Shown: piece after piece, positions 19,964-48,679 of the stretch
How positions within the stretch are numbered: the stretch's first letter is position 1
Layout: every line of letters starts with the position of its first letter
Program-made: the position numbers and the translations under genes
Notes under the pieces: model-generated
Databases searched by the model: none
What the model saw: only the letters and a program-made list of their open reading frames with translations
What the model was told of the DNA's origin: nothing
DNA from: Pollutibacter soli
Lineage (GTDB): Bacteria > Bacteroidota > Bacteroidia > Chitinophagales > Chitinophagaceae
Assembly: GCA_029269725.1 (NCBI GenBank)
Contig: JARJHS010000014.1
Coordinates: 1-64,000, forward strand
Length of the DNA: 64,000 nucleotides
Reading direction: 5' to 3'

Positions 19964-20056
19964 CTGCTGTTTGGTGGCTTCAGCAACTGCAGCACCGGCC
20001 ATCGTACGAAAAATATCATATCCGGGATCCGATAGTGCGCGAAATCAGTCTGAAGC

Positions 20057-20095
20057 CTGATTCCCGTCATTCCCAGCTATACACGGATAGATTTA
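20057..20095 (+). promoter_or_regulatory. CRP/FNR-type site and -7 box before the flavin-reductase-like gene
   Basis: CTGAT-TCCC-GTCAT (20057-20070) lies about 25 bp upstream of TAGATTTA (20088-20095), seven of eight positions of a Bacteroidota -7 box if the spacer is free. A start near 20102 would give a 50-nt leader to the ATG at 20152. The spacing is a little shorter than at the other promoters of the set. Confidence 0.55.
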
Positions 20096-20151
20096 ATTGC
20101 AGGAACAACAATGGACAGAACCCTGTCTGGAATAGCACAAAACATACAGCT

Positions 20152-20598
20152 ATGTTAGGTACAATGACACAGGATCGCATGAAAACGATTCTCGCAAGCC
20201 AGGTGCTGGGAAGGCTTGGCTGCGTAGATGGAGGAAAACCCTACATCATTCCGGTGACATATATGTTTGATGGAAAATATATTTACGGTCAGACAAACGA
20301 AGGGAAAAAATTATCAGTGCTGAGAAAAAATCCGCATGTATGTTTCGAAGTTGATCTGATGTTAAACATGCGAAACTGGGAAAGTGTGATTGTGTATGGA
20401 ACATTTGAAGAGCTGAAGGGTGTTTACGCATCCGAAGCCAGAGACTTGCTTTTTGACCGGGTTTATCCCCTCATGGCGAGTACAACAATACATCCTCACG
20501 AACATGAAGTAACAACCGTTGTCGATGTTAGTTCAGGAGCGAAATATGTCATGTACAGGATAAAAATCGAAAAAATGACAGGGCGTTTCGAGCGTTGA
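20152..20598 (+). CDS. Pyridoxamine 5'-phosphate oxidase family, flavin-binding protein
   Basis: 148 aa from the ATG at 20152. It shows the split-barrel flavin-binding pattern: ILASQVLGRLGCVDGGKPYIIPVTYMFDGKYIYG, then LRKNPHVCFEVDL and WESVIVYGTFEEL. Small members of this family bind FMN or F420-like cofactors and often act as flavin reductases or nitroimidazole-type reductases. The start is chosen because the family begins close to this Met and because the putative promoter lies downstream of an earlier in-frame GTG at 20035. First gene of a likely operon with adh and glgP (13-bp and 77-bp gaps). Confidence 0.85.
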   Translation: MLGTMTQDRMKTILASQVLGRLGCVDGGKPYIIPVTYMFDGKYIYGQTNEGKKLSVLRKNPHVCFEVDLMLNMRNWESVIVYGTFEELKGVYASEARDLLFDRVYPLMASTTIHPHEHEVTTVVDVSSGAKYVMYRIKIEKMTGRFER

Positions 20599-20611
20599 GA
20601 AATTCCGGCAC

Positions 20612-21619: not shown

Positions 21620-21696
21620 CTGCAGCCTCATGATATCCCGGAGTTTTACCGGCTTTTGAAAATCAATTTTACAATCCAGAGTCATATTTTCCGAAA

Positions 21697-23355: not shown

Positions 23356-23421
23356 ATATCAAATTCAATCCCTTTCCCATCCGATGCTGGATAACCTTGT
23401 CCTTTAAATATCTCTCCTGCT

Positions 23422-23488
23422 CTGATTTCAATCAGCTGATCGGCTGACGAAAGTGCTTGCTTCCAACAGTAGTCCGGTTTTATTTTAG
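23422..23488 (+). promoter_or_regulatory. CRP/FNR-type site and -7 box of hsp20
   Basis: CTGAT-TTCA-ATCAG (23422-23435) is a perfect inverted repeat with a 4-bp spacer. TATTTTAG (23481-23488) resembles the -7 box. The distance from repeat centre to box start is 52.5 bp, a class I activator position. Confidence 0.65.
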
Positions 23489-23522
23489 TAGTAACATTTA
23501 TTCAACCAAAAAATAATATACT

Positions 23523-23966
23523 ATGTCATCAAGCACACTTGCAAGGTTGTCCGACAGGATGCCATCGTTATTCAACGATTTTTTTAAGCCATGGAATGAA
23601 TTGTATGACAATGATTCCTTTTTCGGACCACTGTCAAAAATTCCCGCTGTAAACATTACAGAACATAAGCACGAATACCTCGTTGCCCTGGCGGCACCAG
23701 GAATGAAAAAAGAAGATTTCAAAATCGATATGGATGGGAATATTCTCACCATCAGCTCAGAAAAAGAAGAGACTAAAGAAGAAAAAGAGAAAAAATTTAC
23801 CCGCAAAGAATACAATTACTCTTCCTTCAGCAGAAGTTTCACAGTTCCGGAAGAAATCATTCGTGAGAAAATTGAAGCCAGATACGAGAACGGGATTCTC
23901 AATATATCACTTCCCCGAAAAGATGAACCAAAAAAAGCAGCCAGTAAGCAAATTTCAGTGAAATAG
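23523..23966 (+). CDS. Small heat shock protein, Hsp20/alpha-crystallin
   Basis: 147 aa. N-terminal region with FNDFFKPWNELYDND, then the alpha-crystallin domain (about residues 42-135) with the A-x-x-x-G-x-L signature as IEARYENGILNISLPRK near the end, and a short Lys-rich tail. ATP-independent holdase that keeps unfolding proteins soluble. Monocistronic: own promoter, terminator 73 bp after the stop. Part of the stress island. Confidence 0.95.
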   Translation: MSSSTLARLSDRMPSLFNDFFKPWNELYDNDSFFGPLSKIPAVNITEHKHEYLVALAAPGMKKEDFKIDMDGNILTISSEKEETKEEKEKKFTRKEYNYSSFSRSFTVPEEIIREKIEARYENGILNISLPRKDEPKKAASKQISVK

Positions 23967-24038
23967 AACTACTGGTCTGTCGACACGGAGTCCAACCCAA
24001 TTCGCAGGGATTACCTGATCTAAAAATCCGGGTGGTTC

Positions 24039-24541: not shown

Positions 24542-26135
24542 TGCCAGGCATTTGTTGTTATATCTTTTTTTCCTTTTCAAGTCATTGGACCTTCATCCAC
24601 AAATCAAACCAGATGAGATACGCCATTACTTTCAGGAAAGACAATCAAATGCTGAACTTTTAGAGATCTCCGGCATTGAAAAGTTCTACTCTTTACTTGA
24701 TTTCCGGTTCGCATGGATAAATGGTGATAGCAGTCGTTCCTCTCTTGATACTATCTTCCGGCTAATTAAGCGATGTGATGAAGCCGGACTTGATCCCGCT
24801 GACTATCAACCCGGCTTTCTTGAAAATTTAATTCAGAAAAGAAACACCCTGCTCTCGAGATATGATTCTGTTTCGGCAGAAATACGTTTGACACAAATTA
24901 TTTTACAATTCTGCTGTGATCTCGCATTTGGTAATTGTGCTCCGGAATTTCGATTCAATTCCCTGAAATATCAGGCAGACATATTTTTTCCTGCCGCAAC
25001 ATTGTCTCATTGCCTGTCGGCAAAGGTATTGTATAAACTAAAGGCACTGCTAACGCCTCCGGTTGCTGAGATTTTGATAATTGAGGAGCAGATTCAAAAA
25101 CTGAATGCAATCATTTCATCACCTTTTTTTCATGAAGTAAAGATAATTTCCAGCCGACCAGATACAAGCAATACTGCGTTGATTCAAAAACTCTATCAAT
25201 TGGGTGTTGTTAACATAATGCACGATTCTGTTTTGTCAGGAAGTTTAGCACAACCGATAAAAACAGCCCAACATAAGTTCAATATTCCGGCGGACGGCAT
25301 CTTAACATCAATAACGTTAAAGGAATTTAATATTCCAATCCATATCAGGCTGCAACAGCTGAAACTATCTGTAAATTATTATCGCTGGCTTTACCAGATC
25401 ATCAGAAGTCAATCTGTGATTTTAGTCAACATTCCAGCATGCAATATGAAAGTATATAACGAAGATTCGCTTATAATGGAAATGCGAATGGTCGTTGGTA
25501 AAAAATCTACACCTACACCAACTTTAACTTCAAGGATAAAAAATGTTGTTCTTTATCCGTACTGGCATGTTCCACGCAAAATAGTTGTCAATGAACTTTT
25601 ACCATCATTCAAAAGCAATCCTGCTGCTGTAGAAGCGGGCAATTTTCAAATACTTGATTTATCAGGTAATATCATTAACCCGTCAGGTATAAACTGGAGT
25701 AAGGTTAATGCAGATCATTTCCCATATATAGTCCGACAAAGCACAGGTTGCGAAAACGCACTTGGATTGCTGAAGCTTGAATTTTATAATCCTTTCGGTG
25801 TGTATTTACATGATACTCCTTTGAAATCGGCATTCATGCTGCGTAGAAGATTTTTCAGTCATGGTTGTATGAGAATGGAAATGCCGAAAGAACTGGGACG
25901 GCTTATATTGAAAAATCATGTGGAGGCCATTGATTCACTGGATCAGAAAGGATGTGTCAGAAATCAAGCCCCGATAATCATACCAGCTGATGATGAGATG
26001 GCAGTTGTCGTTTGGTATAATCCCGTCGGAATTGATGCAAAAGGAAGATTAATTTTTTTTGAAGATGTCTACCAAAAATTCTCGTGGGGGAAATATCGCG
26101 AAGCAGGAAACGCTTATATAATAACCAGGTCTTAG
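24531..26135 (+). CDS. L,D-transpeptidase, YcbB-like
   Basis: 534 aa. A hydrophobic N-terminus (about residues 8-20) serves as signal or anchor. A helical scaffold with a peptidoglycan-binding-like part (residues about 30-290) is followed by the YkuD catalytic domain. There, RMVVGKKSTPTPTLTSRI leads to YPYWHVPRKI, then YLHDTP and the active-site SHGCMRME with Cys near residue 446. The YcbB/LdtD type makes 3-3 cross-links in peptidoglycan or attaches proteins to it. Such links help cells survive envelope stress. The stop overlaps by 4 bp the stop of the convergent response regulator gene. Confidence 0.9.
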   Translation: MQNDARHLLLYLFFLFKSLDLHPQIKPDEIRHYFQERQSNAELLEISGIEKFYSLLDFRFAWINGDSSRSSLDTIFRLIKRCDEAGLDPADYQPGFLENLIQKRNTLLSRYDSVSAEIRLTQIILQFCCDLAFGNCAPEFRFNSLKYQADIFFPAATLSHCLSAKVLYKLKALLTPPVAEILIIEEQIQKLNAIISSPFFHEVKIISSRPDTSNTALIQKLYQLGVVNIMHDSVLSGSLAQPIKTAQHKFNIPADGILTSITLKEFNIPIHIRLQQLKLSVNYYRWLYQIIRSQSVILVNIPACNMKVYNEDSLIMEMRMVVGKKSTPTPTLTSRIKNVVLYPYWHVPRKIVVNELLPSFKSNPAAVEAGNFQILDLSGNIINPSGINWSKVNADHFPYIVRQSTGCENALGLLKLEFYNPFGVYLHDTPLKSAFMLRRRFFSHGCMRMEMPKELGRLILKNHVEAIDSLDQKGCVRNQAPIIIPADDEMAVVVWYNPVGIDAKGRLIFFEDVYQKFSWGKYREAGNAYIITRS

Positions 26136-27190
26136 TTAGCCAGGTTTTCCAATTTCTTTTTATTGATTATGCGTATGATTCCGTTTTCAGAATCAATCAG
26201 TTTTTCATTCTTGAAATCTGAAAGTGTTCGGATAAGTGATTCGGTAGCGGTTCCTGCAACTGTAGCCAGACTTTCACGACTAATATCTATATCAAAAATT
26301 TCATCTTTTCTGTCCTGGTATTTTGACTGTATCATCAACAGGGCGTCTGCCACCTTTCTTCGCAACGAGTTATAAGCCAGTTTTAAAAGATGTTCCTCTT
26401 TTTCAGAGATATTTCGTGCCAGTAATTGGATAAATTTTCTTGCCACGTCCGGATTCTTGTCTATCAATTCATCAAAATCTTCTTTTGGAATAATGGCAAG
26501 TTCACATTCGTCAAGGGCTTCCGCAGTCTCCTTGTATAAAGAATTTTCGAGAAGTGCCAGATGCCCAACAAAATCGCCCGCATTATATAAGTCAACTACC
26601 AGTTCTTTCCCATCATCGTTTGTCTTGTAAGTCCTGACTTTACCTTTTACAAGATAGTAAAGTCTGTTTGGGTGATTACCTTCAGTATAGATGATCTGTT
26701 TTCTTTTGTACCGATTCAAATTTCTGCCTTCGACCAAATCTTCCAGTTTTTTCTTGCCCGAATTTGTATTCAATAAAGTTTGCATTCCTTCCAGGCCCTG
26801 GGTTAATTCTGTTTTTAATGCGTCTAACTTCTTCAGGCGACGATCAACAGCGTTCAGTAATTCTGTACCATCGAATGGTTTTGCCAGATAGTCATCAGCT
26901 CCCAGGTCCATACCTTTTCTGAAGTCCGATCTTTCCGTTCTTGCTGTCACGAAAATAAAAGGAATATTTTTTGTGGACTCATTACGCTGCAAGGCATGCA
27001 GAACGCCATATCCGTCCAGTTCAGGCATCATGATATCGCAGATGATCAAATCCGGAATAATTTCCAAAGCCTTCACTACGCCGATTTTACCATTCTCGGC
27101 CACCGCAACCTTATAATTTGAAAGCTCAAGAATTTCTGCAGTGTTACTCCTGATGTCTTCATTGTCTTCTATGACAAGGATCTTTTTCAT
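26132..27190 (-). CDS. Hybrid response regulator: receiver plus CRP/FNR-type DNA-binding protein
   Basis: 352 aa. Residues 1-120 are a receiver domain (ILVIEDNED, phospho-acceptor Asp in DLIICDIMMPELDG, Lys in YLAKPF). Residues about 140-250 are a cyclic-nucleotide-type beta-barrel (NRLYYLVKGKVRTYK, AGDFVGHLALL). Residues about 275-350 are a Crp-type winged helix. The recognition helix VAGTATESLIRTLSDF keeps the Glu and Arg that contact the GA of TGA half-sites in FNR and CRP, but the FNR Ser is Ile. No N-terminal Cys cluster, so it is unlikely to sense oxygen by itself; phosphorylation by the adjacent kinase is the probable input. The 4-bp overlap with the kinase gene couples the two. Confidence 0.9.
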   Translation of the reverse strand: MKKILVIEDNEDIRSNTAEILELSNYKVAVAENGKIGVVKALEIIPDLIICDIMMPELDGYGVLHALQRNESTKNIPFIFVTARTERSDFRKGMDLGADDYLAKPFDGTELLNAVDRRLKKLDALKTELTQGLEGMQTLLNTNSGKKKLEDLVEGRNLNRYKRKQIIYTEGNHPNRLYYLVKGKVRTYKTNDDGKELVVDLYNAGDFVGHLALLENSLYKETAEALDECELAIIPKEDFDELIDKNPDVARKFIQLLARNISEKEEHLLKLAYNSLRRKVADALLMIQSKYQDRKDEIFDIDISRESLATVAGTATESLIRTLSDFKNEKLIDSENGIIRIINKKKLENLAN

Positions 27191-28785
27191 ACCAGATGCT
27201 CTTTATTAAATGTAATGGTGAATTCAGTCCCATAATCAAGTTCACTTCTGCATTTAACGGTGCCGTTCATTAATTCAGCATATTTGGCAACGAGGTGCAG
27301 TCCAAGCCCGGTACCCTGGATATTTGCAACATTTGTTCCACGAAAAAACCGCTCAGTTAAATGTTGCTGATCATTTTTTGAAATACCGATGCCGTTATCT
27401 TTAACTGATATGGTTACTGCCGATGTATTTGTCTCTATATTGATATTGATCACACCATCATCCGGCGAAAATTTGCTTGCATTTGAAATTAAATTCAAAA
27501 TGATATGTTTCAGCAATGAAGCATCCATTTCTACCATTGGTGCTCCGGCATGTACCAGGTTGATCGTCTGCTGTTGTTTGAGGTTGTTTCTGATCTCTTC
27601 AATAGTAGTTAGCGCAAACTGATGGATATCGAATGCTGAATTCTTTACAACAATTTTTCCTTCTTCGATTTTCCCGACACAGAGAAAATCATTGAGAATA
27701 TCAGTAAGCATATTTACCGATGATATAATACGCTTCAGGTGTTTTTCTCTTTTGAAGCGCTGTTCACCAGTGTTATATTGTTCGAGCAGATAAGCAGAGG
27801 ACAAAATGGTACTTAATGGAGTGCGGAATTCATGCGACGCCATGGAAACAAATCGTGACTTCAGCTCTCCCAGTTCTTTTTCTTTTTCAAGTAACCTCGA
27901 CAATTCATCTTTTGATTTTTCAAGTTGAGTAATAGCAGTTTTCAACTGTGCGGTTCTTTGGTCAACAGTTTCTTCAAGATCATCGTTTAGCTTTTTGATT
28001 TCCAACTCGGATTTTTTTCTTATAGAAATGTCGCTGACAAAAGCAATAATGTTATGGTTTCCATTCCGTTTATAACTGCTCAGACTAACCTCAACCGGAA
28101 ATTCAGTTCCATTTTTTTTAATAGCATACAGATCTATTCCTACGCCCATCGGACGGCTCTTCGGATTGCGCGCATACTGAGTACGATGGATGACATGATT
28201 CGAATGAAATCTGGATGGAATAAGCAATTCGATATTTGCACCGACAAGCTCATTTTTTTTATACTTAAAAAGAGATTCGGCAAACTTATTTACTGCTACA
28301 ATTTTCCCCTGATCATTTGCTTCAATTATTCCCATACTCGCATGTTCCAAAATAGCCCGATACCTTTTTCTGTCCTGCGAAATTTTTAATTCCGTTTCTT
28401 TTATACTATCGATCGGATCTAAAATAAAAAGTAAAAAAGTCTTCCGCTTACTTACAAAAGCCCGAATTGTCAGGTCAACCCAGAAACTTTTTCCTGTTAA
28501 CGAAATGAATTCGGTCTGTTCTCTGTAAACTCCATGACCTTCTGCTTCGCCTACGCGGAAAAGTAACTCATTATTGCCTAGCGGCGGTTTACGACGAAGC
28601 GCAAAATCAGTAATTGAAAGCTTCGACCGGCTGTCGATGCCGAACATACTGCACAACGACGCATTACAAAAAATAACTTCTCCGCTGCTTTTCTCAATAA
28701 TTGCGGCGCCCTCTTTGATTCCATTGGAAAGCGCAACCAGTAAATCGCTTCCCGGGATGCTTATATCGTGTAGCTTATCGCGCAT
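27187..28785 (-). CDS. PAS-domain sensor histidine kinase
   Basis: 532 aa without transmembrane segments, so cytoplasmic. Two PAS domains (about residues 15-125 and 140-255, the second with GIIEANDQGKIVAVN and ELVGANIELLIPSRF). A coiled-coil linker follows (KKLNDDLEETVDQRTAQLK), then HisKA with SMASHEFRTPLSTILSS (His near 318) and HATPase with NLISNASKFSPDDG, DNGIGI and GTGLGLHLVAKYAE. It should phosphorylate the co-encoded receiver-CRP regulator. The PAS domains resemble FixL-like sequence in the second domain, but I see no residue that proves heme binding. Its own promoter region shows no site of the island motif. Confidence 0.92.
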   Translation of the reverse strand: MRDKLHDISIPGSDLLVALSNGIKEGAAIIEKSSGEVIFCNASLCSMFGIDSRSKLSITDFALRRKPPLGNNELLFRVGEAEGHGVYREQTEFISLTGKSFWVDLTIRAFVSKRKTFLLFILDPIDSIKETELKISQDRKRYRAILEHASMGIIEANDQGKIVAVNKFAESLFKYKKNELVGANIELLIPSRFHSNHVIHRTQYARNPKSRPMGVGIDLYAIKKNGTEFPVEVSLSSYKRNGNHNIIAFVSDISIRKKSELEIKKLNDDLEETVDQRTAQLKTAITQLEKSKDELSRLLEKEKELGELKSRFVSMASHEFRTPLSTILSSAYLLEQYNTGEQRFKREKHLKRIISSVNMLTDILNDFLCVGKIEEGKIVVKNSAFDIHQFALTTIEEIRNNLKQQQTINLVHAGAPMVEMDASLLKHIILNLISNASKFSPDDGVININIETNTSAVTISVKDNGIGISKNDQQHLTERFFRGTNVANIQGTGLGLHLVAKYAELMNGTVKCRSELDYGTEFTITFNKEHLV

Positions 28786-32205: not shown

Positions 32206-33312
32206 TTAATAATATTTTATGAGTGCTATATGATCAAAATCCTTCAACAGGCCATCTTCAACAAACTCTACATCGCCACCACTCTCAAAAACAAATTGTA
32301 TGATCTCATCGACCCGGTTTTCAATGGCGGGATATTTTTTTGAATGCCTTTCCTCTATATTATCCATCATCTTCACGTTATTGCTTTCGAAATAATTTGC
32401 CTCGACAACCAATAGCTTTCCTTTATGACCAGCGGCACTCTTCCACACATCAGTCATTCCCGATACCAGTTGTTTTCTGTTTGCCGCTTCGTTCAACTGA
32501 TTCAACAAATTCCTTTGCATTGCCATTTCCCATTCTGCAATCATCGGCTGTATTAATTTGGTGATTTCAGGAAGTGTAGCTTCTTCATAATTTCCATGTA
32601 TATAATCGATGATTTCTTCGGAATGCTTTGATAGCGATTTAAAATGGCCATAGATCCTTCGGGGAGCAACAATAAACAGAGGAAGCCGATATGTGTTAAG
32701 CAACATACCCAGGGTATGATCAATAGCATGAAGAAATTTTTCCAAAACGATATCGTGATGTGCGTGAGGATCTGAAAAATTTGCAACCCGCTCTGGTGTG
32801 TCGGCAATTTGTTCGGCAAATGAGTCAATATTGACGGATGATAGTTTTGTGAGAGAATATTTATCGCCAAGTAGAACTCTGGCCTCATTTCCTCCAAAGA
32901 GCAACAGAAGAAATTGCTGTGTTCTTTTCTTATTGTAAATGATATCACGAACTTTAAAAGTGTCACCAACAAAAACTTTCTTTTCTATCGGAATGTCCAG
33001 ATAAATAACCTTTTCGTATGCAGGCGAAACATGCACCACGATGCTTTTTTTACTTGTGCTAAAGTTCAAACCGGCAAAAACAGAGTTCAGTTTTTCACTC
33101 ATCAGCTGCACAACTACAGGAGAATATTGCTGAGCAAGCTCCTCTTCCACCTGCTTTTTTACATCAGACAATGATTTTAAAATATCTTCTTTTTTTGTTG
33201 TTGCAGGTTCGAAATCAGAAAAAATCGAAATAGCCGGATGGTGAAAAGGATTAGAAAACAATTCGGGCATTCCTGGAAGCTTTGCTGTATGCATCTGATA
33301 AGTTTTAAACAA
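32206..33312 (-). CDS. baeRF3-like protein (bacterial release-factor-1-like family)
   Basis: 368 aa, no signal peptide. The C-terminal half resembles the bacterial archaeo-eukaryotic release factor family 3: FIVAPRRIYGHFKSLSKHSE, a helical middle with RNLLNQLNEAANRKQLVSG, and GKLLVVEANYFE...GGDVEFVEDGLL. The relation to archaeal/eukaryotic release factor 1 and Pelota suggests ribosome-associated action, such as ribosome rescue or hibernation. That is family-level knowledge and no function is shown here. The start is uncertain: the putative -7 box (33310-33317) overlaps ATG 33312, so translation more likely starts at ATG 33294 or 33270, the latter preceded by CCAGGA. Leads the usp-ppsA operon. 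Confidence 0.75.
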   Translation of the reverse strand: MFKTYQMHTAKLPGMPELFSNPFHHPAISIFSDFEPATTKKEDILKSLSDVKKQVEEELAQQYSPVVVQLMSEKLNSVFAGLNFSTSKKSIVVHVSPAYEKVIYLDIPIEKKVFVGDTFKVRDIIYNKKRTQQFLLLLFGGNEARVLLGDKYSLTKLSSVNIDSFAEQIADTPERVANFSDPHAHHDIVLEKFLHAIDHTLGMLLNTYRLPLFIVAPRRIYGHFKSLSKHSEEIIDYIHGNYEEATLPEITKLIQPMIAEWEMAMQRNLLNQLNEAANRKQLVSGMTDVWKSAAGHKGKLLVVEANYFESNNVKMMDNIEERHSKKYPAIENRVDEIIQFVFESGGDVEFVEDGLLKDFDHIALIKYY

Positions 33313-33354
33313 ATCTATCTACCACCGTTACTTTAAAACCCTGATTTTCGTCAC
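33310..33354 (-). promoter_or_regulatory. CRP/FNR-type site and -7 box of the baeRF3-usp-ppsA operon
   Basis: The repeat CTGAT-TTTC-GTCAC (33341-33354, + strand reading) is centred 30.5 bp upstream of a perfect minus-strand -7 box TAGATTTG (33317 down to 33310). This is a class II activator layout. Confidence 0.72.
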
Positions 33355-33494
33355 CGGCTGGTTTGATAGTGCTCAGTTACGAGGGTACAAAAAGTATCCC
33401 GATCTGTTAACAGGGGGCAAAAAATGATCATTTTAAATACTGAAGGCGTGAAACCGGAAGCGATACACAAAAATGACCACAATCATATTTTTCG

Positions 33495-33538
33495 CTGAAG
33501 ACCATCAGTAATTACAGGTGAAGTGTAATCTAGATTCG
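33495..33538 (+). promoter_or_regulatory. CRP/FNR-type site and -7 box of the second usp gene
   Basis: CTGAA-GACC-ATCAG (33495-33508) is centred 29.5 bp upstream of TAGATTCG (33531-33538). The ATG follows at 33556. Confidence 0.7.
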
Positions 33539-33555: not shown

Positions 33556-34383
33556 ATGAAAAAAATAATCGTCGCTTTTGATGGGGCAAATTATCCCGAA
33601 ACTGCTCTTCAGTTTTTAGTTGAATTAAATAATAAAAATCCGATACTGGCAGTAGGAGCATTTATGCCTCAGACAACTTTATCCACCTTGTGGATTGAAA
33701 CGGGTGGAAGTGCAAATGGCCCTGACTTTATCCCCTATGTTGCGGAAGATGTTGGTGATATTATACGAACCAACGTCAGGCATTTTGAAAACTTTTGTAC
33801 TGATCACAATATTGAATATCGGGTCCACCGCGATTTTTTTGATTTTACCATCCAGGAATTGAAGAAGGAGTCAAGATTTGCAGACCTGGTGATGATATGC
33901 AGTGGCACATTCTATGCGCATATGGGAGACGATCCAAATGTCTTCCTTACTGAAGCATTGCGGGAAGTGGAGTGCCCTGTGATAGTCCTTCCTGAAGAGT
34001 ACAGTTTCCCCACAGCAAATATACTTGCATACGACGGGACCGCATCATCAGTTTATTCAATCAAGATGTTCGCCTATCTTTTTCCGGAGCTGGCAACAAA
34101 TCCCACAACGATTGTTTATGCAGATCGTGATTTTAATGAGCCGATACCCGATGCACTGAATATTCATGAGCTTGCGGCGAGACATTTCGACAATCTGACG
34201 TTGTTTAAACTTCCAGCTGATCCGAAAAAATATTTCGGCACCTGGCTTCTGGAACACAATGCCTCAATAGTTGTTTGCGGTGCTTATGGCGGAAGGGCAT
34301 TCAGTCGTCTTTTTCATAAAAGCTTCAGCATTGAAATGCTGAAGGAGCAGCGGTTGCCTGTTTTCATTGCGCATAACCGTTAG
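33556..34383 (+). CDS. Universal stress protein family protein
   Basis: 275 aa with two Usp-like halves: MKKIIVAFDGANYPETALQF to about residue 150 (CPVIVLPEEYS), then ILAYDGTASSVYSIKMFAYLF to the end (VCGAYGGRAFSRLFHKSFS, LPVFIAHNR). The second half retains a partial nucleotide-binding loop; the first does not. Divergent from the baeRF3 operon, each with its own CRP-type site in the 243-bp region between. The stop overlaps by 4 bp that of the convergent outer-membrane protein gene. Confidence 0.85.
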   Translation: MKKIIVAFDGANYPETALQFLVELNNKNPILAVGAFMPQTTLSTLWIETGGSANGPDFIPYVAEDVGDIIRTNVRHFENFCTDHNIEYRVHRDFFDFTIQELKKESRFADLVMICSGTFYAHMGDDPNVFLTEALREVECPVIVLPEEYSFPTANILAYDGTASSVYSIKMFAYLFPELATNPTTIVYADRDFNEPIPDALNIHELAARHFDNLTLFKLPADPKKYFGTWLLEHNASIVVCGAYGGRAFSRLFHKSFSIEMLKEQRLPVFIAHNR

Positions 34384-35206: not shown

Positions 35207-35881
35207 CTAATCTTCGTAGGAAAATTCCGGCTCCTCAATTTCAAGCCTGTCGTCAACCCCCGTTACGCCAGGTGCGCTCCATGCCGCATGTTCGGCATCT
35301 TCCCGCTCTGAAGAAGATCGCACGCGACCTTTCAATACAACCTTGTCCCCAACGGTTTCCACTTTGATTTTGTCCGCATCAATGGACGCAGTTCTTTTTA
35401 AGGCAGCTACAATTTTTTCATGAACATCCCTGGCAACCACATGAGGTTTAATTTTGATGTAGTTAATTACAGCTTTTACACCTACCAGGTTTTCAATGGC
35501 AATTTTCGCACTTGCTCTTTGGTATTCCCAGTCAACTTCACCGTCGAGATATACATTCCCATTCTCAACTTTGATCGTTACTTTTTCGTCAGGTACACTG
35601 GAATGCCATTTTAATGCAGCTACCGCGGCTTCCGCTACTTCAGCGTCTGTTTTGGCCAGGAAAGGAGATACACCAAAAGTCATGTCGTCGGCTAATGCCT
35701 TTACTCCGGCAATTTTCAACGCATCTTTTTCCGCTGCGATTTTCTTTGCATAGCTATCCACCTGGCCGGAGAGAGTAACAATCCCTCTTTTAACAGCTAC
35801 ACCGATTTCGGCGGAATTCAGCAATGGATCCCATTTTAATTCATCCATAACGTCTTTTTGAATCTGAATATCACTTTTCAT
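35207..35881 (-). CDS. BON-domain protein (three BON repeats)
   Basis: 224 aa. Three BON domains in a row (about residues 4-70, 77-147 and 149-216), each with the pattern I/V-x-V-x-G/N-G-x-V-x-L-x-G-x-V: VKRGIVTLSGQVDSYAKK, VENGNVYLDGEVDWEYQ, VGDKVVLKGRVRSSSE. No signal peptide is visible, unlike OsmY, so it is probably cytoplasmic. BON domains bind membranes or phospholipids and are common in osmotic and general stress proteins. Single gene with a class I-type CRP/FNR site. Confidence 0.9.
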   Translation of the reverse strand: MKSDIQIQKDVMDELKWDPLLNSAEIGVAVKRGIVTLSGQVDSYAKKIAAEKDALKIAGVKALADDMTFGVSPFLAKTDAEVAEAAVAALKWHSSVPDEKVTIKVENGNVYLDGEVDWEYQRASAKIAIENLVGVKAVINYIKIKPHVVARDVHEKIVAALKRTASIDADKIKVETVGDKVVLKGRVRSSSEREDAEHAAWSAPGVTGVDDRLEIEEPEFSYED

Positions 35882-35933: not shown

Positions 35934-36000
35934 CGAATCTATAAACCTGTATTACCTGAATGCAATGACAGCAGTCAACAGTATCGCTGATTGATCTCAT
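35934..36000 (-). promoter_or_regulatory. CRP/FNR-type site and -7 box of the BON gene
   Basis: CTGAT-TGAT-CTCAT (35987-36000, + reading) is centred 52.5 bp upstream of minus-strand TAGATTCG (35941 down to 35934), the same -7 sequence as before the second usp gene. The ATG is at 35881. Confidence 0.6.
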
Positions 36001-39969: not shown

Positions 39970-40392
39970 TTAACCTTGCGGCTGTGAAAGAATAACGGCT
40001 TGCTTGTGCAATAATATCCTGCCACAGATGATTAAGACGATTGCCATAAGAGAAACAAGTATCTGTAAAACCGAAAAGATTTTAAAGGTCAGTATTTGAA
40101 TCAGGATCCACATTACAAGCAATACTCCCTGTACGACCACCATTCTCGGATAATGTCTTGACTTCAGAATTCCGGACGTGGCAATGTATAATCCCCTCAA
40201 ACCAAACAAGACAAACAGCACCAGGGCAGGAAAAGTATAGTCCGGAAATATCTTTCTGTTAAGCCATCCCGGTTCAAAGTGAATACTTTGACCGCTTGGA
40301 TCTTTCAATAGGGGAATACTTCCATAAAATGCACCTGCAGCAATTATAACGAGTGTGGTGATACTGGTGTATCGGCAAATGACTTTCGTCAT
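39970..40392 (-). CDS. Hypothetical four-helix membrane protein
   Basis: 140 aa, four predicted transmembrane helices (about residues 9-27, 52-70, 84-102 and 107-125). No family recognised. Its start overlaps the end of the DUF2892-like gene by 4 bp, so both come from one transcript. Confidence 0.7.
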   Translation of the reverse strand: MTKVICRYTSITTLVIIAAGAFYGSIPLLKDPSGQSIHFEPGWLNRKIFPDYTFPALVLFVLFGLRGLYIATSGILKSRHYPRMVVVQGVLLVMWILIQILTFKIFSVLQILVSLMAIVLIICGRILLHKQAVILSQPQG

Positions 40393-40610
40393 AGTATCCG
40401 GTTAATATTATTCTTTTTAAGTGAGCTTAAACCGAATAATGAATACAGCGGGCATGTGCCCACCAAAGCCGTAATGCCCAGTATACCGGCCAATACCAGT
40501 ATTACCCACTTCACTATTCCTTCAGGAACTTCTAAAAAATAATAGCTGAACAGCAATGCAGAAACTATTATACGAACCAACCTGTCAGTTGTACCAAGGT
40601 TCTTTTTCAT
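40389..40610 (-). CDS. DUF2892/YgaP-like transmembrane protein
   Basis: 73 aa. The start MKKNLGTTDRLVRIIVSALL, the two membrane helices and the ending ALVGTCPLYSLFGLSS (Cys before Pro-Leu-Tyr) are typical of the small DUF2892 family, which is also found fused to rhodanese domains. Role unknown. Two TGA-N6-TCA repeats lie 124-159 bp upstream. Confidence 0.88.
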   Translation of the reverse strand: MKKNLGTTDRLVRIIVSALLFSYYFLEVPEGIVKWVILVLAGILGITALVGTCPLYSLFGLSSLKKNNINRIL

Positions 40611-40733: not shown

Positions 40734-40769
40734 ATGATGAACGTCAACCAGGTTTTTGATTAAAATCAG
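40734..40769 (-). promoter_or_regulatory. Two candidate CRP/FNR-type sites before the DUF2892-like gene
   Basis: ATGAT-GAAC-GTCAA (40734-40747) and TTGAT-TAAA-ATCAG (40756-40769) lie 22 bp apart, two helical turns. No good -7 box is found at the expected distance; minus-strand CACTTTTA at 40711-40704 is the best at 29.5 bp from the first. Confidence 0.4.
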
Positions 40770-41153: not shown

Positions 41154-42491
41154 TTATACGCCGAAAGGATAAGTCTCAGGGGTTAGATTTCCATCAGGTT
41201 TCATATGAACGGGGAACAGCGCACTTGTTTCTTCGAGATAGATAAACGCATCATACCGGAGAGGAAGGATGGTGGGAACATAGTTACCGTACTTTTCATA
41301 TTGCGGATGATATACTACCCCGATTGCTCGGTGGCCTATATGATTCTCCATCATGGAATCATTACGTATAAAATCATCCATCAGCAGCAGTTTGTTTTTC
41401 GCTGATGCTTTATGCAGAAAATATTCCCAGCTTCCATCCATTGCTTCAGGCATGGTCATCGTTTGCATGGGTGCACCCCAATTCCGCCCGGCAGTAACTG
41501 TACCTTTGTAAGAGCCAAAGCCAACCAACACAACTCCTTTTTCGTGATGCTGTGTACGGGCCAGTTCACCGATATTGATCATGCCTTCATCTGCCATATC
41601 AGTAGCCCTGGCGTCTCCTATATGCGTGTTATGCGCCCAAACAACAGCTTTTGAGTTATTTCCATGAAACTTCAGGAGACGTTCGAGTGTATCGGCCATA
41701 TGCCTGTCACGAACATTCCAGCTATGTGGTCCACCCATAATCATCGCGCGATAATATTTTTCGGCATTCACTGTAACCAATGCATTTTGTTCCGTGCTGA
41801 AAACATTTTCGTGATCAGTGTTGTATTGGGGCAGTTTAGTTTGTATCTCTTTGAGCAGTTGAACTACTTCCTGTTGACATGCTTCGGGAACAAGAAGTGT
41901 AGCCCGGGCATAGGAATGTCCTTCATCTTTTTTGTAAGGTTCAAAGCAGTGAAAAGCTTCTTCCGCTACTTTCAGAGCCGCAGGATCGGTTTTTTTCAGG
42001 TATTGCATAATACTGCTCATACTTTCCCAAAGGCTGTAAACATCCAAACCGTAAAACCCAACTTTATTATTTGCAGACAACTTTTTATTGTGCTGTTGCA
42101 TCCAGCCGGCAAGTGCCATTATTTCCCGATTTGCCCACATCCATGTGGGCCATCGGTCAAAAGAGTGTAATACATCAAAGATGCCTTTATTATCTGTATC
42201 ATATCCTTTCACATAACGGTTAAGTCTGTAACAATCCGGCCAATCACCTTCCACCGCAATAAAATTGAAACCTTTTTCCTCCACCAGTTTTCGGGTGATA
42301 TTTGTCCGCCACTGATAATATTCATGTGTGCCATGTGAGGATTCTCCTAACATCACAATACGCGCATCTGCGATGCGATCAAAAAGAGGATCCAGATCGG
42401 CCTTTGACTCCAACGGGTAGCTCCCTTGTTTTATGGCCTCAATTACCTCCTTCATATTCACTGACGCCTGTTTTGTAAAATATCTGCGCAT
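41154..42491 (-). CDS. Erythromycin esterase family protein
   Basis: 445 aa. Family motifs: RIVMLGESSHGTHEYYQWR (about residue 50), FNFIAVEGDWPD, VVWAHNTHIGDA (about residue 290) and HHEKGVVLVGFGSYKGTV. The His and Glu residues in GESSHGT and VEGDWPD are the catalytic set of Ere enzymes. Chromosomal members like this one are usually not macrolide-resistance genes. The neighbouring alpha/beta hydrolase and phosphoribosyltransferase are frequent partners of this family in bacteria. Start ATG 42491; leader about 20 nt from the predicted promoter. Confidence 0.9.
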   Translation of the reverse strand: MRRYFTKQASVNMKEVIEAIKQGSYPLESKADLDPLFDRIADARIVMLGESSHGTHEYYQWRTNITRKLVEEKGFNFIAVEGDWPDCYRLNRYVKGYDTDNKGIFDVLHSFDRWPTWMWANREIMALAGWMQQHNKKLSANNKVGFYGLDVYSLWESMSSIMQYLKKTDPAALKVAEEAFHCFEPYKKDEGHSYARATLLVPEACQQEVVQLLKEIQTKLPQYNTDHENVFSTEQNALVTVNAEKYYRAMIMGGPHSWNVRDRHMADTLERLLKFHGNNSKAVVWAHNTHIGDARATDMADEGMINIGELARTQHHEKGVVLVGFGSYKGTVTAGRNWGAPMQTMTMPEAMDGSWEYFLHKASAKNKLLLMDDFIRNDSMMENHIGHRAIGVVYHPQYEKYGNYVPTILPLRYDAFIYLEETSALFPVHMKPDGNLTPETYPFGV

Positions 42492-42519: not shown

Positions 42520-42563
42520 CAAAGCAACTTCATTCGTTATCGAAATACAATGATCGTTGTCAG
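42520..42563 (-). promoter_or_regulatory. CRP/FNR-type site and -7 box of the erythromycin-esterase-like gene
   Basis: ATGAT-CGTT-GTCAG (42550-42563) is centred 29.5 bp upstream of minus-strand TTGCTTTG (42527 down to 42520), one mismatch from TAnnTTTG. Confidence 0.68.
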
Positions 42564-42571
42564 TAATAATT

Positions 42572-42616
42572 TTGACTAACCTCATTGTTACGGCCCTTCG
42601 ACAGCTCCTACATTTA
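42572..42616 (+). promoter_or_regulatory. CRP/FNR-type site and -7 box of the YciE-hydrolase-PRTase operon
   Basis: TTGAC-TAAC-CTCAT (42572-42585) is centred 30.5 bp upstream of TACATTTA (42609-42616). The ATG follows at 42635 after AGGAG. It is 22 bp, two helical turns, from the site of the divergent gene. Confidence 0.68.
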
Positions 42617-42634: not shown

Positions 42635-43159
42635 ATGGAAGAGCAATCAGAAACCATATCCACATTATTTCATCTTTTTAAATACAATGCCAGTAAGTGC
42701 ATGGCCGCTGAAATCCAGCTGAAGCATAGCATGGCAGAGTGGATCACCGGGGCGGGCTCAGTGCAATTGAAAATGGTATTGCAGAAATATTCCGGGTTTG
42801 TTGACCAACATGTGCAAAAGCTCGCAGAATTTACGGAAGAAGAAAATCTCAATTCTATTGCTACGACTGACCAGGTGATGAAAGCATTTGTGGATGAAGC
42901 AAACCAGAAAAATAAATTGTGTACCGATGCCGAAGTCAGGGATGCCAGCCTGCTTGCCAGTGTACAGCTGATCAATCATTTTAAAATCAGTATGTACGGT
43001 ACTGCAACAGCTTTTGCTAAGGAGTTGAATCTGGAACAGGCCGCAGCCGTTTTTCATGAAATGGAGATCAATGAAAAACATATAGATGATCGTTTATCTC
43101 AATTGGCGGGATTCGAGATAAATAAAAAAGCGCATACGACAATTGTAATCCCGGAGTAA
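42635..43159 (+). CDS. DUF892 (YciE/YciF-like) protein
   Basis: 174 aa, all-helical four-helix-bundle pattern: LFKYNASKCMAAEIQLKHSMAEW, a helix with HVQKLAEFTEE, then LLASVQLINHFKISMYGTATAFAKEL and the final helix with FHEMEINEKHIDDRLS. Glu and His residues spaced as in the ferritin-like YciE/YciF stress proteins. Its role is inferred from that family. First gene of an operon with an alpha/beta hydrolase and a phosphoribosyltransferase (11-bp gaps each). Confidence 0.82.
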   Translation: MEEQSETISTLFHLFKYNASKCMAAEIQLKHSMAEWITGAGSVQLKMVLQKYSGFVDQHVQKLAEFTEEENLNSIATTDQVMKAFVDEANQKNKLCTDAEVRDASLLASVQLINHFKISMYGTATAFAKELNLEQAAAVFHEMEINEKHIDDRLSQLAGFEINKKAHTTIVIPE

Positions 43160-43170
43160 AAATCAGTTGT

Positions 43171-43836: not shown

Positions 43837-43847
43837 ATCAATTTCAG

Positions 43848-44480: not shown

Positions 44481-44716
44481 CCTTTTTGCCATATGCAGGA
44501 AAATCCTATGCAGTCCAGTCAGGAAAATCTGCATGTATTGAAATCAGCTCCAAACCAGAAAACTGCTTTCCCTATACTTATTGAATCCCAAATGATATTC
44601 CTTTTCTCCATTATGAGATGATGACATCAATACTGCATTCATCGATGAGAAAGAGTGCAAGCAGACGCGTGATTTTCTCAGGTCTCCGACCCCTTAAAAC
44701 TCAGGGAAAATATCGG

Positions 44717-45658
44717 TTAAATATTTACATCCGAAAATCGATCATGCGGCAATTCACGGACAACTGGTGAGTCATGCAACTGATCGTTTTCGTTAAGCAA
44801 ACGGACGGAAAAAGGTTCATTAAAACTGCTGAGTTTTTCTAAAACAGTCTGCCTGACTCTTTTCTTTCTCTGTACTATTACGTGCTTCATTTCAGCGGCC
44901 TGTTTTCTATTTTTCTTACTCCATTTGTGCAGAAAGGGTTTTCCCAGCAACGCCAATGAGGTACATTGATCCTGAATGATCCCCAATTCAACCAGTAACT
45001 TTTCCAACATGGGATTAGTCATTACCGCATCATTCCCATTATTTTGTGTCTGTTCGTTTTTTTCATTAGTGAACAGACCGGAATTATTAAACAGATCTTT
45101 TAATATTTTTCTCAATGCGTGAAGGTCTTCGTCGTTAAAATCGCTGCGAATGAGAATTGATTTTGTACTGTTCTGGCAGCCCGCAATGTAACGGATGTAA
45201 TTTTGAAACGAAAACGTATCCGGAAGAATACGGTCCGTTTTTTTCCTGCTTTTTTTTATGGGTTTTCCGGCCAGCATATCTTTCAATTTACGCTGTTGCC
45301 TTTGGATTTTTCTTCGTATCGCTTTTAAACAGGAATTGGTCCTTGCTTTATGTCCATTGAGTAATTGCAGGACATCTGTACTTAACAATTGAAGGTCCCT
45401 TATAGTACCGGTGATTTTGTATGTGTGCTTCAGGTCCTTCGACATTTGAATTAAATGATAGTGATTATTATCTTCTGATATCATCCGAAGAAAAGCCCTC
45501 AATTTTTTATACTCTACGCGGAACTGGTGTATGCTGTAATGATCAAAGCCATTGAAGGAATCCCTTGCATACTCTTTCATCATTCCGTAATGCTCGCCAG
45601 CGATACTATGCAATTCAGATCTTTCCATTCGGTTGGAGATTTCGGGTTCTGGCACCAT
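44717..45658 (-). CDS. CHAD-domain protein
   Basis: 313 aa. The CHAD domain starts at about residue 35 with IHQFRVEYKKLRAFLRMI and continues through LQLLSTDVLQLLNGHK, LHALRKILKDLF and a Lys/Arg-rich end. CHAD domains are helical, rich in conserved His and basic residues, and bind inorganic polyphosphate. This fits a stress island, since polyphosphate builds up in starvation. A divergent site-plus-promoter lies just upstream. Confidence 0.85.
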   Translation of the reverse strand: MVPEPEISNRMERSELHSIAGEHYGMMKEYARDSFNGFDHYSIHQFRVEYKKLRAFLRMISEDNNHYHLIQMSKDLKHTYKITGTIRDLQLLSTDVLQLLNGHKARTNSCLKAIRRKIQRQQRKLKDMLAGKPIKKSRKKTDRILPDTFSFQNYIRYIAGCQNSTKSILIRSDFNDEDLHALRKILKDLFNNSGLFTNEKNEQTQNNGNDAVMTNPMLEKLLVELGIIQDQCTSLALLGKPFLHKWSKKNRKQAAEMKHVIVQRKKRVRQTVLEKLSSFNEPFSVRLLNENDQLHDSPVVRELPHDRFSDVNI

Positions 45659-45671
45659 GAGCCTTATGTTA

Positions 45672-45715
45672 CTAAATTATCACACAGAACAATCATAACA
45701 AATGAAACATCTCAC
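45672..45715 (-). promoter_or_regulatory. Candidate CRP/FNR-type site and -7 box of the CHAD gene
   Basis: ATGAA-ACAT-CTCAC (45702-45715, imperfect) is centred 29.5 bp upstream of minus-strand TAATTTAG (45679 down to 45672). The distance matches the other class II sites, but the repeat keeps only TGA and TCA. Confidence 0.45.
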
Positions 45716-45985
45716 TACATGTTGTGATTATTGTCAATGATTCAGCGAATTCAATGATGTAATATCAGAACGCGTTGAATACCTTCAGATGCATGGAACG
45801 GCGTTGCCGCAAGTCCCATATCAAACAGGTTAAATAATTTATTGTCGACAGTTTAGTTTTGAGTTCCAGGCTTCCCGGGCTCCGAAATTGAATGTCAAAC
45901 CGGTGATCAAACTTTACTGTTAAAAATCAGCTGTTGTTGGATCATCTTTGCCTTGCACATTACTTGTCAGAGAACTTCAATCAGC

Positions 45986-46022
45986 CGTGCACGAGGCATG
46001 TAAAACCGTAATACGGTGCACG
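45986..46022. other. Nested inverted repeats in the usp3 leader region
   Basis: CGTGCAC (45986-45992) and GTGCACG (46016-46022) flank CCGT-AAT-ACGG (46006-46016). No T-run follows. It lies between the divergent CHAD and usp genes and upstream of the CRP-type site. Possible operator or RNA structure. Confidence 0.35.
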
Positions 46023-46112
46023 CGTTCCCGCAAAATCTTTTACTGGTATCGGGTGAGTTTATCGGATATTCCGCCAATGGAGATCCGGTAGGGTTATCCA
46101 ACACCTGGCAAC

Positions 46113-46178
46113 CTGACCATTGTCAGATTTCCATATGACAGAGAACACTTTTTAAAAATCCGGCACAAGCTAGATTTG
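46113..46178 (+). promoter_or_regulatory. CRP/FNR-type site and -7 box of the third usp gene
   Basis: CTGAC-CATT-GTCAG (46113-46126), a perfect inverted repeat, is centred 51.5 bp upstream of a perfect -7 box TAGATTTG (46171-46178). This is the class I layout of hsp20 and BON. Confidence 0.72.
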
Positions 46179-46289
46179 ATCATACAGGTACTTTTTACCC
46201 GTCATGGATGAATAGTTTCTTGTTGCCATTGTAAGACGACACCGATGGCCGGGAAACGCTGTATTAGAAACAAATTCAAGTTATTGGTC

Positions 46290-47108
46290 ATGAAAACAAT
46301 TATTGTTGGTACTGATTTATCATTGAATGGGGCTGTTGCGATCCGCTATGCCGCTGATATGGCGCTCGCAACAGATGCTCATCTGCATATCCTGCATGTA
46401 CATCAACCAACCTTAAGTTATGTAGAACTTGCACTCCATGTGGACTCCGGGAGCATGGTGTCCGCGGCGGAAAAAGAAATGGAGGAATTGAAAGAATATT
46501 TTGAAAAGCTGACGAAAGGAAGGCTTTATATTTCGACAGAGGTGAGAATGGGAGATGTAATAGAGGAACTTCAGCAGGTCTGTAAAAGAATATCCCCCGA
46601 TTTTGTGGTGATAGGTGCCCAGGGCAAGAGTGCTGCAGCAAGGTTTTTTCTGGGAAGTCATGCGGTGCGTATTATGAGGCAATTGAAGTGGCCGGTGATC
46701 GCTGTTCCGAAAGAAGGGCATTTCAGGGTTATAAAAAAGATAGGGCTTGCCTGTGATCTCAATGATGTTGTTGAATCGATTCCAATAGATGAAATCAAAT
46801 TACTGGTAAAAAGTTTCAATGCCGAACTACACGTCATCAATTCCGGGAAAATGGCCGAATTCTATCCTGAGGAACTGGATCAATCGATCATATTAAGAGA
46901 ACTGCTGGAAGCTGAAAACCCCACCTTTCACTTTATAGTAAATAAATCGGGGGATAATGCGATTCTTGAATTTGCAGAACAAAATGAAATTGACCTGCTG
47001 ATTATCATCCCCGGGCACCACAGCGTAATTAAACAATTGGTTACCCGAAGCCATACCAGGAAAATGGTACTTCAAAGTCATGTGCCCGTCATGTCATTGC
47101 AGGCTTAG
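46290..47108 (+). CDS. Universal stress protein with two tandem Usp domains
   Basis: 272 aa from ATG 46290 (MKTIIVGTDLSLNGAVAIRY). The first domain keeps a full ATP-binding loop, GAQGKSAAARFFLGS (G-x2-G-x9-G-S), near residue 110. The second (about 145-272, IGLACDLNDVVESI) lacks it. Same length and layout as the usp gene at 31372-32190, so the two are probably paralogues. An upstream in-frame ATG (46245) is rejected because the family begins with MKTII. The SDR gene follows after 35 bp. Confidence 0.9.
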   Translation: MKTIIVGTDLSLNGAVAIRYAADMALATDAHLHILHVHQPTLSYVELALHVDSGSMVSAAEKEMEELKEYFEKLTKGRLYISTEVRMGDVIEELQQVCKRISPDFVVIGAQGKSAAARFFLGSHAVRIMRQLKWPVIAVPKEGHFRVIKKIGLACDLNDVVESIPIDEIKLLVKSFNAELHVINSGKMAEFYPEELDQSIILRELLEAENPTFHFIVNKSGDNAILEFAEQNEIDLLIIIPGHHSVIKQLVTRSHTRKMVLQSHVPVMSLQA

Positions 47109-47143
47109 ATTTCAACCGGCGCACTGTTTAAAAATTTATGGTA

Positions 47144-47896
47144 ATGAAAAGACTCACGAACAAAACCGCAATTGTAACAGGAGCAGCGGGTGGAATCGGA
47201 GCAGCGACCGCAAAATTATTTGTTGAAGAAGGAGCGAATGTATTGGCAACTGACCGGCATATTTCAATCCTGGAAGATTGGGTGAATCCCCTTAAAAAAA
47301 CAGGTGCAGCGATCGAAGCTCTGGAACATGACGTGGCAGATGTATCTCAATGGGAAAAAGTAATTAATACGGCATTGAAAAAATTTAATCATATAAACAT
47401 ACTTGTAAATAATGCAGGAATATTTCCTGGATTTGTGAATTGCGAGGAAACTTCGTTAGGTGTATGGAACAATGTAATAGCCACCAATCTGACAGGACCT
47501 TTTCTCGGATGCCAGGCATGTATTCCACATATGCGGATCAACGGCGGAGGCGCAATTATCAATATTGCTTCAATCGCGGGACTGGTTGGAGGAAACGGTG
47601 TTGCTTACTCCGCATCAAAAGGGGGGCTTAGATTATTGTCTAAAGACCTTGCGGTTACACTTGCAAAAGATAAAATCAGGGTGAACACCATTTGCCCGGG
47701 CGCGGTATTAACACCTATGACAGCAGAACTGGTCAGCAAAACGATCACTGAGGATATTATTAAAAACGGATCGCCACAGGGCAGAATGGCGAGTGCCCAG
47801 GAGATAGCATGGGGCGTACTTTACCTCGCAAGTGATGAATCATCTTTTGTCACTGGTACCGATCTGGTAATAGATGGTGGAGCCGTTGCCAGGTAA
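47144..47896 (+). CDS. Short-chain dehydrogenase/reductase
   Basis: 250 aa. Classical SDR: TGAAGGIGAATAKL (cofactor-binding G-x3-G-x-G), ILVNNAGIFPGF, Ser in IINIASIAG and the YSASKGGLRLLSKDLA catalytic Tyr-x3-Lys, ending in FVTGTDLVIDGGAVAR. Cytoplasmic oxidoreductase of unknown substrate. Probably co-transcribed with the upstream usp gene. An alternative ATG two codons earlier (47138) is possible. Confidence 0.92.
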   Translation: MKRLTNKTAIVTGAAGGIGAATAKLFVEEGANVLATDRHISILEDWVNPLKKTGAAIEALEHDVADVSQWEKVINTALKKFNHINILVNNAGIFPGFVNCEETSLGVWNNVIATNLTGPFLGCQACIPHMRINGGGAIINIASIAGLVGGNGVAYSASKGGLRLLSKDLAVTLAKDKIRVNTICPGAVLTPMTAELVSKTITEDIIKNGSPQGRMASAQEIAWGVLYLASDESSFVTGTDLVIDGGAVAR

Positions 47897-48679
47897 ATCT
47901 GAATTCGTATGCAAAGCAACAGTCAGGTGGAAAATTTGGTTACAGCAGTCAGAGGCTAGGAATGATTAGCTGATTTCTGTAAAAGAGTTGAGTTAAACAC
48001 TTTAAAGGAGTATACAAAACAGTCGCTGCAGGCATTAATATTTGCCTGCAATGATTAATAAATAGTCACAGGAAAACCCTTTCGTATTGTGTCAGTGTTT
48101 ATATGGGCGATAAGCTGGTAAAAAACTATTGGTTGATACGTTCTTGCAAAACCTGTGCTATCCCAAATTCCTAATCGCTGGTAATTCTTTTTTAGCGGCA
48201 ATGGCGAAATTGAATTAAAAGTCAAACGCGCAGTGTTTTATCGCATGCGTCGGCGTCATACTTAATAAAAAGCAAAATTTTAGTTATTGACAATCTCATT
48301 AACATGCTTGTAATAAAATCGCAGTGTCATAATTAAGCAATAAGTCTAAAAATCAAAAAGTATTGATGGTAAAGACAAATATGTCACTATTTAATTTTTC
48401 AGTTTTACAATACCGCACGTAAGAAATTTTATTTTGCTAAAATGACTATAAAATGAAAAGAAGGATAATTAATTTGCCAGGCAGATTTATTTTTAAGCAT
48501 GATGGTATGGATTATAAATAACCAAGCTTAACTATTATAAATATTGCCTGAGCAGGTGACGCAAAGGTTTAATACAAAATCGCGGCCAAAATAGTACTCC
48601 TAAACTAATATCACTATCCTTCGCTGGTTGACTGGCATAACTGTCTTTCTATTCTACATGTCGTCAGTTGATTTATTTA
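47897..48679. other. Intergenic region between the stress island and the hydrolase cluster
   Basis: No gene seen. It contains a perfect 8-bp inverted repeat TGCAGGCA-(8 nt)-TGCCTGCA (48027-48050) without a T-run. It is otherwise A+T-rich and marks the boundary of the island. Confidence 0.55.

Follow-up and report, generated by a model that had tools for sequence, protein, structure and literature searches.

The window analyzed here is a 64,000-nucleotide stretch of Pollutibacter soli DNA (contig JARJHS010000014.1, positions 1 to 64,000). It holds an island of stress genes (universal stress genes, Hsp20, DUF892, BON, a PPDK-type enzyme, a P-type ATPase, and others) together with the two genes listed below, one of which encodes a receiver fused to a CRP-type protein. 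The island is probably part of a regulon of this FNR-like receiver-CRP two-component regulator, which would control low-oxygen and stress targets through a tandem operator, that is, two TGA-N6-TCA dyads with centers 22 bp apart. A sequence-only reading of the window had already proposed one CRP/FNR-type regulon with a fixed promoter geometry, and this proposal was strongly supported by the data below and was found to recur in many Bacteroidota.

26132 to 27190, minus strand: regulator, 352 aa, receiver plus cNMP-type barrel plus Crp HTH (Pfam Response_reg, cNMP_binding, HTH_Crp_2)
27187 to 28785, minus strand: PAS histidine kinase (PAS, HisKA, HATPase_c), presumed partner, overlapping the regulator gene

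Predicted tandem operators and promoter geometry

The dyads listed in the sequence-only reading were all present within 1 bp of the positions given. In the window, 15 rows at 13 distinct places matched the exact motif yTGAyN4rTCAk, compared to a mean of 3.31 in dinucleotide shuffles. Seven of these places lie in 20 to 46.2 kb and six outside; the repeat is thus not confined to the island, and a tandem-like promoter was also found at 4228 to 4292. Since 6 of the 13 places fall outside, the single exact motif is not itself the argument, and its enrichment was set aside as weak evidence. The spacing between dyads proved far more insightful. The 52 occurrences of TGA-N6-TCA in the window included six pairs with centers exactly 22 bp apart, while any other spacing up to 120 bp gave 0 or 1 pair. 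The Poisson expectation was 0.042 pairs per spacing, with a P of about 8e-12 for six pairs at 22 bp. All six were located between 33.3 and 45.8 kb (about 12.4 kb).

Most of the dyads listed in the sequence-only reading could be assigned to a place within such pairs. Exact pairs contain those at 33342, 33496, and 45703 as proximal members and that at 35988 as a distal one, while 42551 and 42573 are each the proximal member for one of two divergent genes. In the cases of 46114 and 23423, the listed dyad is the distal member and its proximal partner is degenerate, matching at 5/6 and 4/6 bases, respectively. The chance of a degenerate partner per position is 0.0073 for at least 5/6 and 0.049 for at least 4/6, and the promoter at 23423 is therefore considered weak. 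Distances to the -7 box were measured as the offset from the center of a dyad to the first base of TAnnTTTG. With up to one mismatch in the box, most of the distances proposed earlier held, at 29 to 30 nt for proximal and 51 to 52 nt for distal dyads. The 25 bp proposed for the dyad at 20058 was not confirmed; this dyad has a 5/6 partner 22 bp upstream and no box (up to one mismatch) at 28 to 31 or 50 to 53 nt. The exact pair 40735/40757 likewise has no box at these offsets. The predicted operators and boxes are as follows.

33342 to 33375, minus strand: exact tandem operator (22-bp pair) before the baeRF3-Usp-PPDK gene row
33310 to 33317, minus strand: -7 box TAGATTTG, exact, offset 30 from 33342
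33474 to 33507, plus strand: exact tandem operator before the universal stress gene at 33556-34383
33531 to 33538, plus strand: -7 box TAGATTCG, one mismatch, offset 29, same universal stress gene
35966 to 35999, minus strand: exact tandem operator before the BON gene (35207-35881)
35934 to 35941, minus strand: -7 box, one mismatch, offset 30, BON gene
40735 to 40768, minus strand (taken from the nearest ORF, 40389-40610, 73 aa): exact tandem operator, no recognizable box
42551 to 42584, no single strand: exact tandem operator between the divergent Erythro_esteras-type (41154-42491, minus) and DUF892 (42635-43159, plus) genes
42520 to 42527, minus strand: -7 box TTGCTTTG, one mismatch, offset 29, Erythro_esteras-type side
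42609 to 42616, plus strand: -7 box TACATTTA, one mismatch, offset 30, DUF892 side
45703 to 45736, minus strand: exact tandem operator before the CHAD gene (44717-45658)
45672 to 45679, minus strand: -7 box, one mismatch, offset 29, CHAD gene
46114 to 46147, plus strand: distal dyad and degenerate (5/6) proximal dyad before the universal stress gene at 46245-47108
46171 to 46178, plus strand: -7 box TAGATTTG, exact, offset 29 from the degenerate proximal dyad of 46114
23423 to 23456, plus strand: distal dyad and degenerate (4/6) proximal site before Hsp20 (23523-23966), weak
23481 to 23488, plus strand: -7 box TATTTTAG, one mismatch, offset 30 from the degenerate Hsp20 site
20036 to 20069, plus strand: dyad 20058 and its upstream 5/6 partner, no box, weak
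4228 to 4292, minus strand: tandem-like operator outside the island, dyad 4281, 5/6 partner 4259, and exact box 4228-4235, followed by ORF 3655-4152

The same spacing was found beside relatives of the regulator. Eighty loci (1.38 Mb) were collected with an alignment of 12 regulators as the query and are the best 80 of at least 592 confirmed stretches; these are mostly from Bacteroidota, and the few labeled otherwise (e.g., Azovibrio and an alphaproteobacterial assembly) are perhaps wrongly binned. The 831 dyads in these loci formed 87 pairs at 22 bp, spread over 46 of the 80 loci, while other spacings from 12 to 120 averaged 0.94 pairs with a maximum of 5. When 320 control motifs (64 triplets, each with 5 gaps) were compared at spacings of 12 to 60, TGA-N6-TCA came first with 87 pairs and the next motif had 20; the 87 pair sequences were all distinct from one another. 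Only one of the 87 pair centers fell inside an ORF, counting ORFs of 100 aa or more with 30 nt trimmed off their edges, though such ORFs make up 85% of the DNA. The sequence-only reading had implied that the repeat should avoid coding sequence; this was the case for the tandem pairs but not for the unpaired dyads, which were mostly coding (448/659).

Sampling by region gave a similar picture. Thirteen regions of up to 20 kb each were fetched from other genomes, and these contained 7 pairs at 22 bp versus 4 at all other spacings up to 60; an exact pair was present in 5 of 12 (this count omits L091). Among five regions from the same genus, one had an exact pair, and relaxed sites numbered 9 at 22 bp versus 0 to 2 at each of 12 other spacings. 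The corresponding relaxed counts for the 80 loci were 159 versus 5 to 21. The relaxed scan prefilters boxes and so misses some one-mismatch boxes at every spacing, including four window promoters, and its counts are therefore lower bounds; they also include one match at 31.5 kb inside coding DNA. A 24-bp spacing seen in four same-genus loci was rejected as a candidate, being located within the regulator gene itself, in the DNA for its C-terminal part. Arrays of three dyads at 22-bp steps were exact in L138 and L171 and had a degenerate third dyad in the Chitinophaga loci L110, L112, and L113.

The box also had a preferred position. For the 174 flanks of the 87 pairs, a box at offset 29 from the proximal center was exact in 30 and present with up to one mismatch in 79, while the runner-up, offset 51, gave 4 and 11 flanks, respectively. 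At least one side carried a box (up to one mismatch) at 28 to 30 in 76 of the 87 pairs, 9 pairs had a box at 29 on both sides, and 11 pairs had none. In Flavobacterium psychrophilum the sigma-A box is placed at -12 to -5 (PMC9723704). The observed box distance, read with start sites as in that species, would put the proximal dyad at -41.5 and the distal dyad at -63.5.

From the two groups of distances, about 30 and about 52 bp, the sequence-only reading had proposed separate class II and class I promoters with one dyad each. The dyads at 20058, 23423, and 46114, which lack an exact partner, would fit this division. The exact 22-bp pairs speak against it, as do the degenerate partners of 46114 and 23423, which lie where they are expected. 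Furthermore, the offset of 51 equals 29 + 22, and a third dyad (at least 4/6) occupies the gap in 7 of the 11 pairs that have a box at 51, 3 of these dyads being exact. Two promoter classes were therefore judged very improbable and rejected; the two groups largely correspond to the proximal and the distal dyads of a single operator that fills both positions at one promoter. In the tandem-operator reading, two dimers would bind the two dyads about two helical turns apart on one face of the DNA, and one promoter would hold the class II (-41.5) and class I (-63.5) positions together. The spacing itself was observed, and from it we infer the binding and cooperativity of two dimers.

Regulator and distribution of the operator

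The regulator has the architecture of the CRP/FNR superfamily (Pfam cNMP_binding 2.6e-24, HTH_Crp_2 2.4e-13). Its receiver residues of the phospho-acceptor type, Asp9, Asp52, and Lys104, were unchanged across the 12 aligned regulators. The same was true of Glu317 and Arg321 of the recognition helix, which we take to be the TGA/TCA-reading residues of CRP/FNR proteins. By eye in this 12-row sequence alignment, the Glu and Arg that presumably form the cAMP pocket of cAMP-dependent CRP were not found in the regulator. Of 81 regulator genes, 75 have a kinase gene no more than 300 bp away, and in 71 it is directly upstream on the same strand. The neighboring PAS kinase would phosphorylate the receiver-CRP fusion. 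As the sequence-only reading had noted, the kinase gene of the window is without the repeat (no TGA-N6-TCA within 220 bp upstream). NCBIfam naming matched 95 families, and none of 25 among them reached its own cut-off.

The pairs are not limited to the window, and the claim that the regulon is built into the stress island was accordingly too narrow. The genome of 6.1 Mb has 14 exact 22-bp pairs (backward control, 1), of which 6 are in the window, 3 are within about 41 kb of a second regulator copy, and 5 are elsewhere. Of the eight pairs outside the window, six are intergenic with respect to ORFs of at least 90 aa, and the other two fall within ORFs of this size. The second copy (50% identity, C33:215001-275000) is near ccoI, ccoNO, and ccoG homologues, and an exact pair lies between ccoI and a RIC/ScdA-like ORF, the latter named by eye. 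Another observation at this locus is that one of the three exact pairs precedes a PNPOx-like ORF.

The distribution of the operator was then compared to that of the proteins in 395 genomes of the phylum by means of a demanding strict promoter pattern (pair, 23 nt, and exact TAnnTTTG). The pattern was found in 30 of the 395 genomes, with no backward-control match; a tandem box at a fixed -7 distance thus makes such regulons readable from sequence. The fusion, called at E<=1e-60, was present in 56 genomes, and the pattern occurred in 23 of these compared to 7 of the 339 without the fusion (Fisher 3e-16, not corrected for relatedness). Six of the seven fusion-less genomes have a standalone cysteine-bearing CRP/FNR relative (E<=1e-40), and the seventh, G109, has neither protein at these thresholds. 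Of the 23 genomes that have the fusion as well as the pattern, 11 (G061, G084, G157, G180, G232, G272, G280, G374, G382, G393, and G437) carry a strict tandem promoter that follows the 3' end of the fusion gene by no more than about 170 bp and has the same strand.

Counts of single-dyad (control in parentheses) and strict tandem promoters differed with the proteins present. They were 172 (28) and 25 for the 35 genomes with the fusion only, 251 (17) and 14 for the 21 with both proteins, 343 (34) and 16 for the 53 with the standalone protein only (10 of the 16 from two genomes of one family), and 62 (15) and 0 for 51 sampled from the 286 with neither protein, G109 excluded. From these counts, a dyad at -41.5 appears to be the rule in genomes that encode either protein, and the tandem form is most frequent where only the fusion is present. 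Two genomes that lack the fusion and have a standalone four-cysteine FNR-like protein, G329 and G364, have strict promoters in numbers that suggest a large regulon: 29 with a single dyad and 4 tandem in G329, and 32 and 6, respectively, in G364.

Several results weigh against the assignment of the operator to the fusion. The strict pattern is missing from 33 of the 56 fusion genomes and from all window promoters, the two strict matches of that genome being on other contigs. An exact pair is missing in 34 of the 80 loci and in 22 of the 48 loci of at least 19 kb. The idea that the operator is unique to the fusion was rejected, since six standalone-only genomes carry it. These same six genomes would also be expected if a standalone FNR/CRP protein were the owner of the tandem sites, with the receiver fusion being only a neighbor or binding elsewhere. 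More distant CRP-type proteins are indeed present in the window's genome (e.g., C34 and C32, 24% identity). This genome, however, has no standalone relative at E<=1e-40 and yet carries its 14 pairs, 6 of them within 20 kb of the fusion gene, and the pairs are dense beside the fusion gene in the 80 loci. The tandem-to-single ratio is also highest in fusion-only genomes (25 of 172 versus 16 of 343 in standalone-only genomes). Ownership by a standalone protein was therefore considered improbable.

The fusion remains the favored regulator, and its relationship to the standalone proteins was examined at the cysteine columns. In 31 standalone proteins with an N-terminal CxxC, the four columns were filled in 30, 31, 30, and 31, while the fusions had 0/25, 0/26, and 2/26 at the last three; their trimmed CRP-half rows do not reach the first column. 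By comparison with the ligands of Escherichia coli FNR, the standalone proteins are presumptive iron-sulphur proteins. In a quick tree of 75 rows, including a sample of 41 fusions, the fusions fell on one side of a branch with an SH-aLRT of 93; the tree is without an outgroup root, has 33 weakly supported branches among its 72 inner ones, and includes three flagged long branches. By sequence, the fusion family is related to standalone cysteine-bearing FNR-type proteins, with a different input and a common promoter code, the direction of change being unrooted. The two forms would be a natural example of regulators that differ in their input domain and share an operator. A broader proposal, held to be about as likely as not, is that in an FNR-like activator found across the Bacteroidota a receiver with a dedicated kinase has replaced the cysteine (iron-sulphur) oxygen sensor while the promoter code was kept, and that the rigid two-dimer operator (-63.5/-41.5, sometimes with a third dyad) acts as a cooperative switch for general stress and low-oxygen respiration.

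Targets, signal, and related systems

The target of each boxed pair was defined as the longest ORF of at least 60 aa starting within 350 nt, which gave a target for 75 of 76 boxed pairs and no ORF for one; being chosen by rule, some picks may be wrong. The Pfam matches of the 75 targets, given as counts rather than as enrichments versus neighboring genes, were led by CcoNO (COX1 plus FixO, 12), PAS (12, of which HisKA 11), and Usp (10), followed by a metal P-type ATPase with a CcoI-type binding domain (8) and by BON, DUF892, PNPOx, FixG, EB_dh, and DoxX (two each). With cbb3 oxidase and the ATPase for its assembly among the targets, along with PAS kinases and universal stress proteins, the signal is likely to be low oxygen or respiratory redox state.

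The PAS domain of the window kinase matches DosP and FixL by sequence. The His aligned to the heme region of DosP is kept in 66 of 68 kinases and in the top PDB match, 10jx, although a kept histidine would be no proof of heme. At the position of the Arg that presumably contacts oxygen in DosP and FixL, the window kinase has Ile, and Arg is found in 19 of 72 kinases. The residues at this position would also fit the same regulator and operator responding to NO, nitrosative stress, or general envelope or energy stress rather than oxygen, as would the RIC/ScdA-like and Rrf2-like ORFs (named by eye) that adjoin two operators of the window's genome. On the other side, the high-affinity cbb3 oxidase is among the commonest targets, and the heme-region His is nearly always kept. 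A signal of this other kind was thus regarded as rather unlikely, and low oxygen or redox state is retained as the preferred input.

Among the systems that come nearest is the FixL-FixJ-FixK cascade, which controls cbb3 oxidase. It shares a PAS kinase, a receiver (predicted here to be phosphorylated), and a CRP-family activator over cbb3 oxidase and CcoG/CcoI-type genes. FixJ and FixK are separate, however, whereas here the receiver and CRP parts are in one fused 352-aa protein, which would act like a condensed FixLJ-FixK system. The fixed tandem-pair operator and the stress genes in the regulon are further differences, and heme in the kinase is putative here. FNR and ANR are [4Fe-4S] oxygen regulators; the likeness lies in the TGA-N6-TCA half-site spacing, the class II position, the anaerobic or microaerobic targets, and the four conserved cysteines of the standalone Bacteroidota relatives. 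The fusion differs in having a receiver instead of cysteines at the columns it covers. Class III tandem CRP promoters have two CRP-family dimers at class I and class II positions, as is predicted here, but their spacing varies between promoters, whereas here it is 22 bp in 46 of 80 loci. The DosR hypoxia regulon of mycobacteria is similar in its two-component hypoxia regulator, universal stress genes, and paired palindromes, but DosR has a LuxR-type output domain in place of the CRP domain.

Among the papers listed, titles and abstracts gave no receiver-CRP fusion regulon in Bacteroidota, subscription papers being mostly outside the search, and nothing relevant was found among those listed on tandem CRP sites at -41.5/-63.5. 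CRP/FNR homologues of Flavobacteriales and Saprospiraceae have been assigned to MalR-like regulators (PMC8510549), in a main text that contains neither "receiver" nor "tandem." The portions of PMC8199190 and PMC7366714 considered have no bearing on the receiver-CRP fusion.

Three minor observations concern gene starts and other features of the window. The dyad at 20058 falls within a GTG-start PNPOx ORF (20035-20598) whose Pfam match starts at residue 46-47, so the real start may be downstream of the dyad. The listed TTG start of the baeRF3 ORF (33312) overlaps the -7 box at 33310-33317, and the true start is therefore probably further in. The only tRNA gene found in the window, for tRNA-Asp, is located at 60974-61048 on the minus strand.

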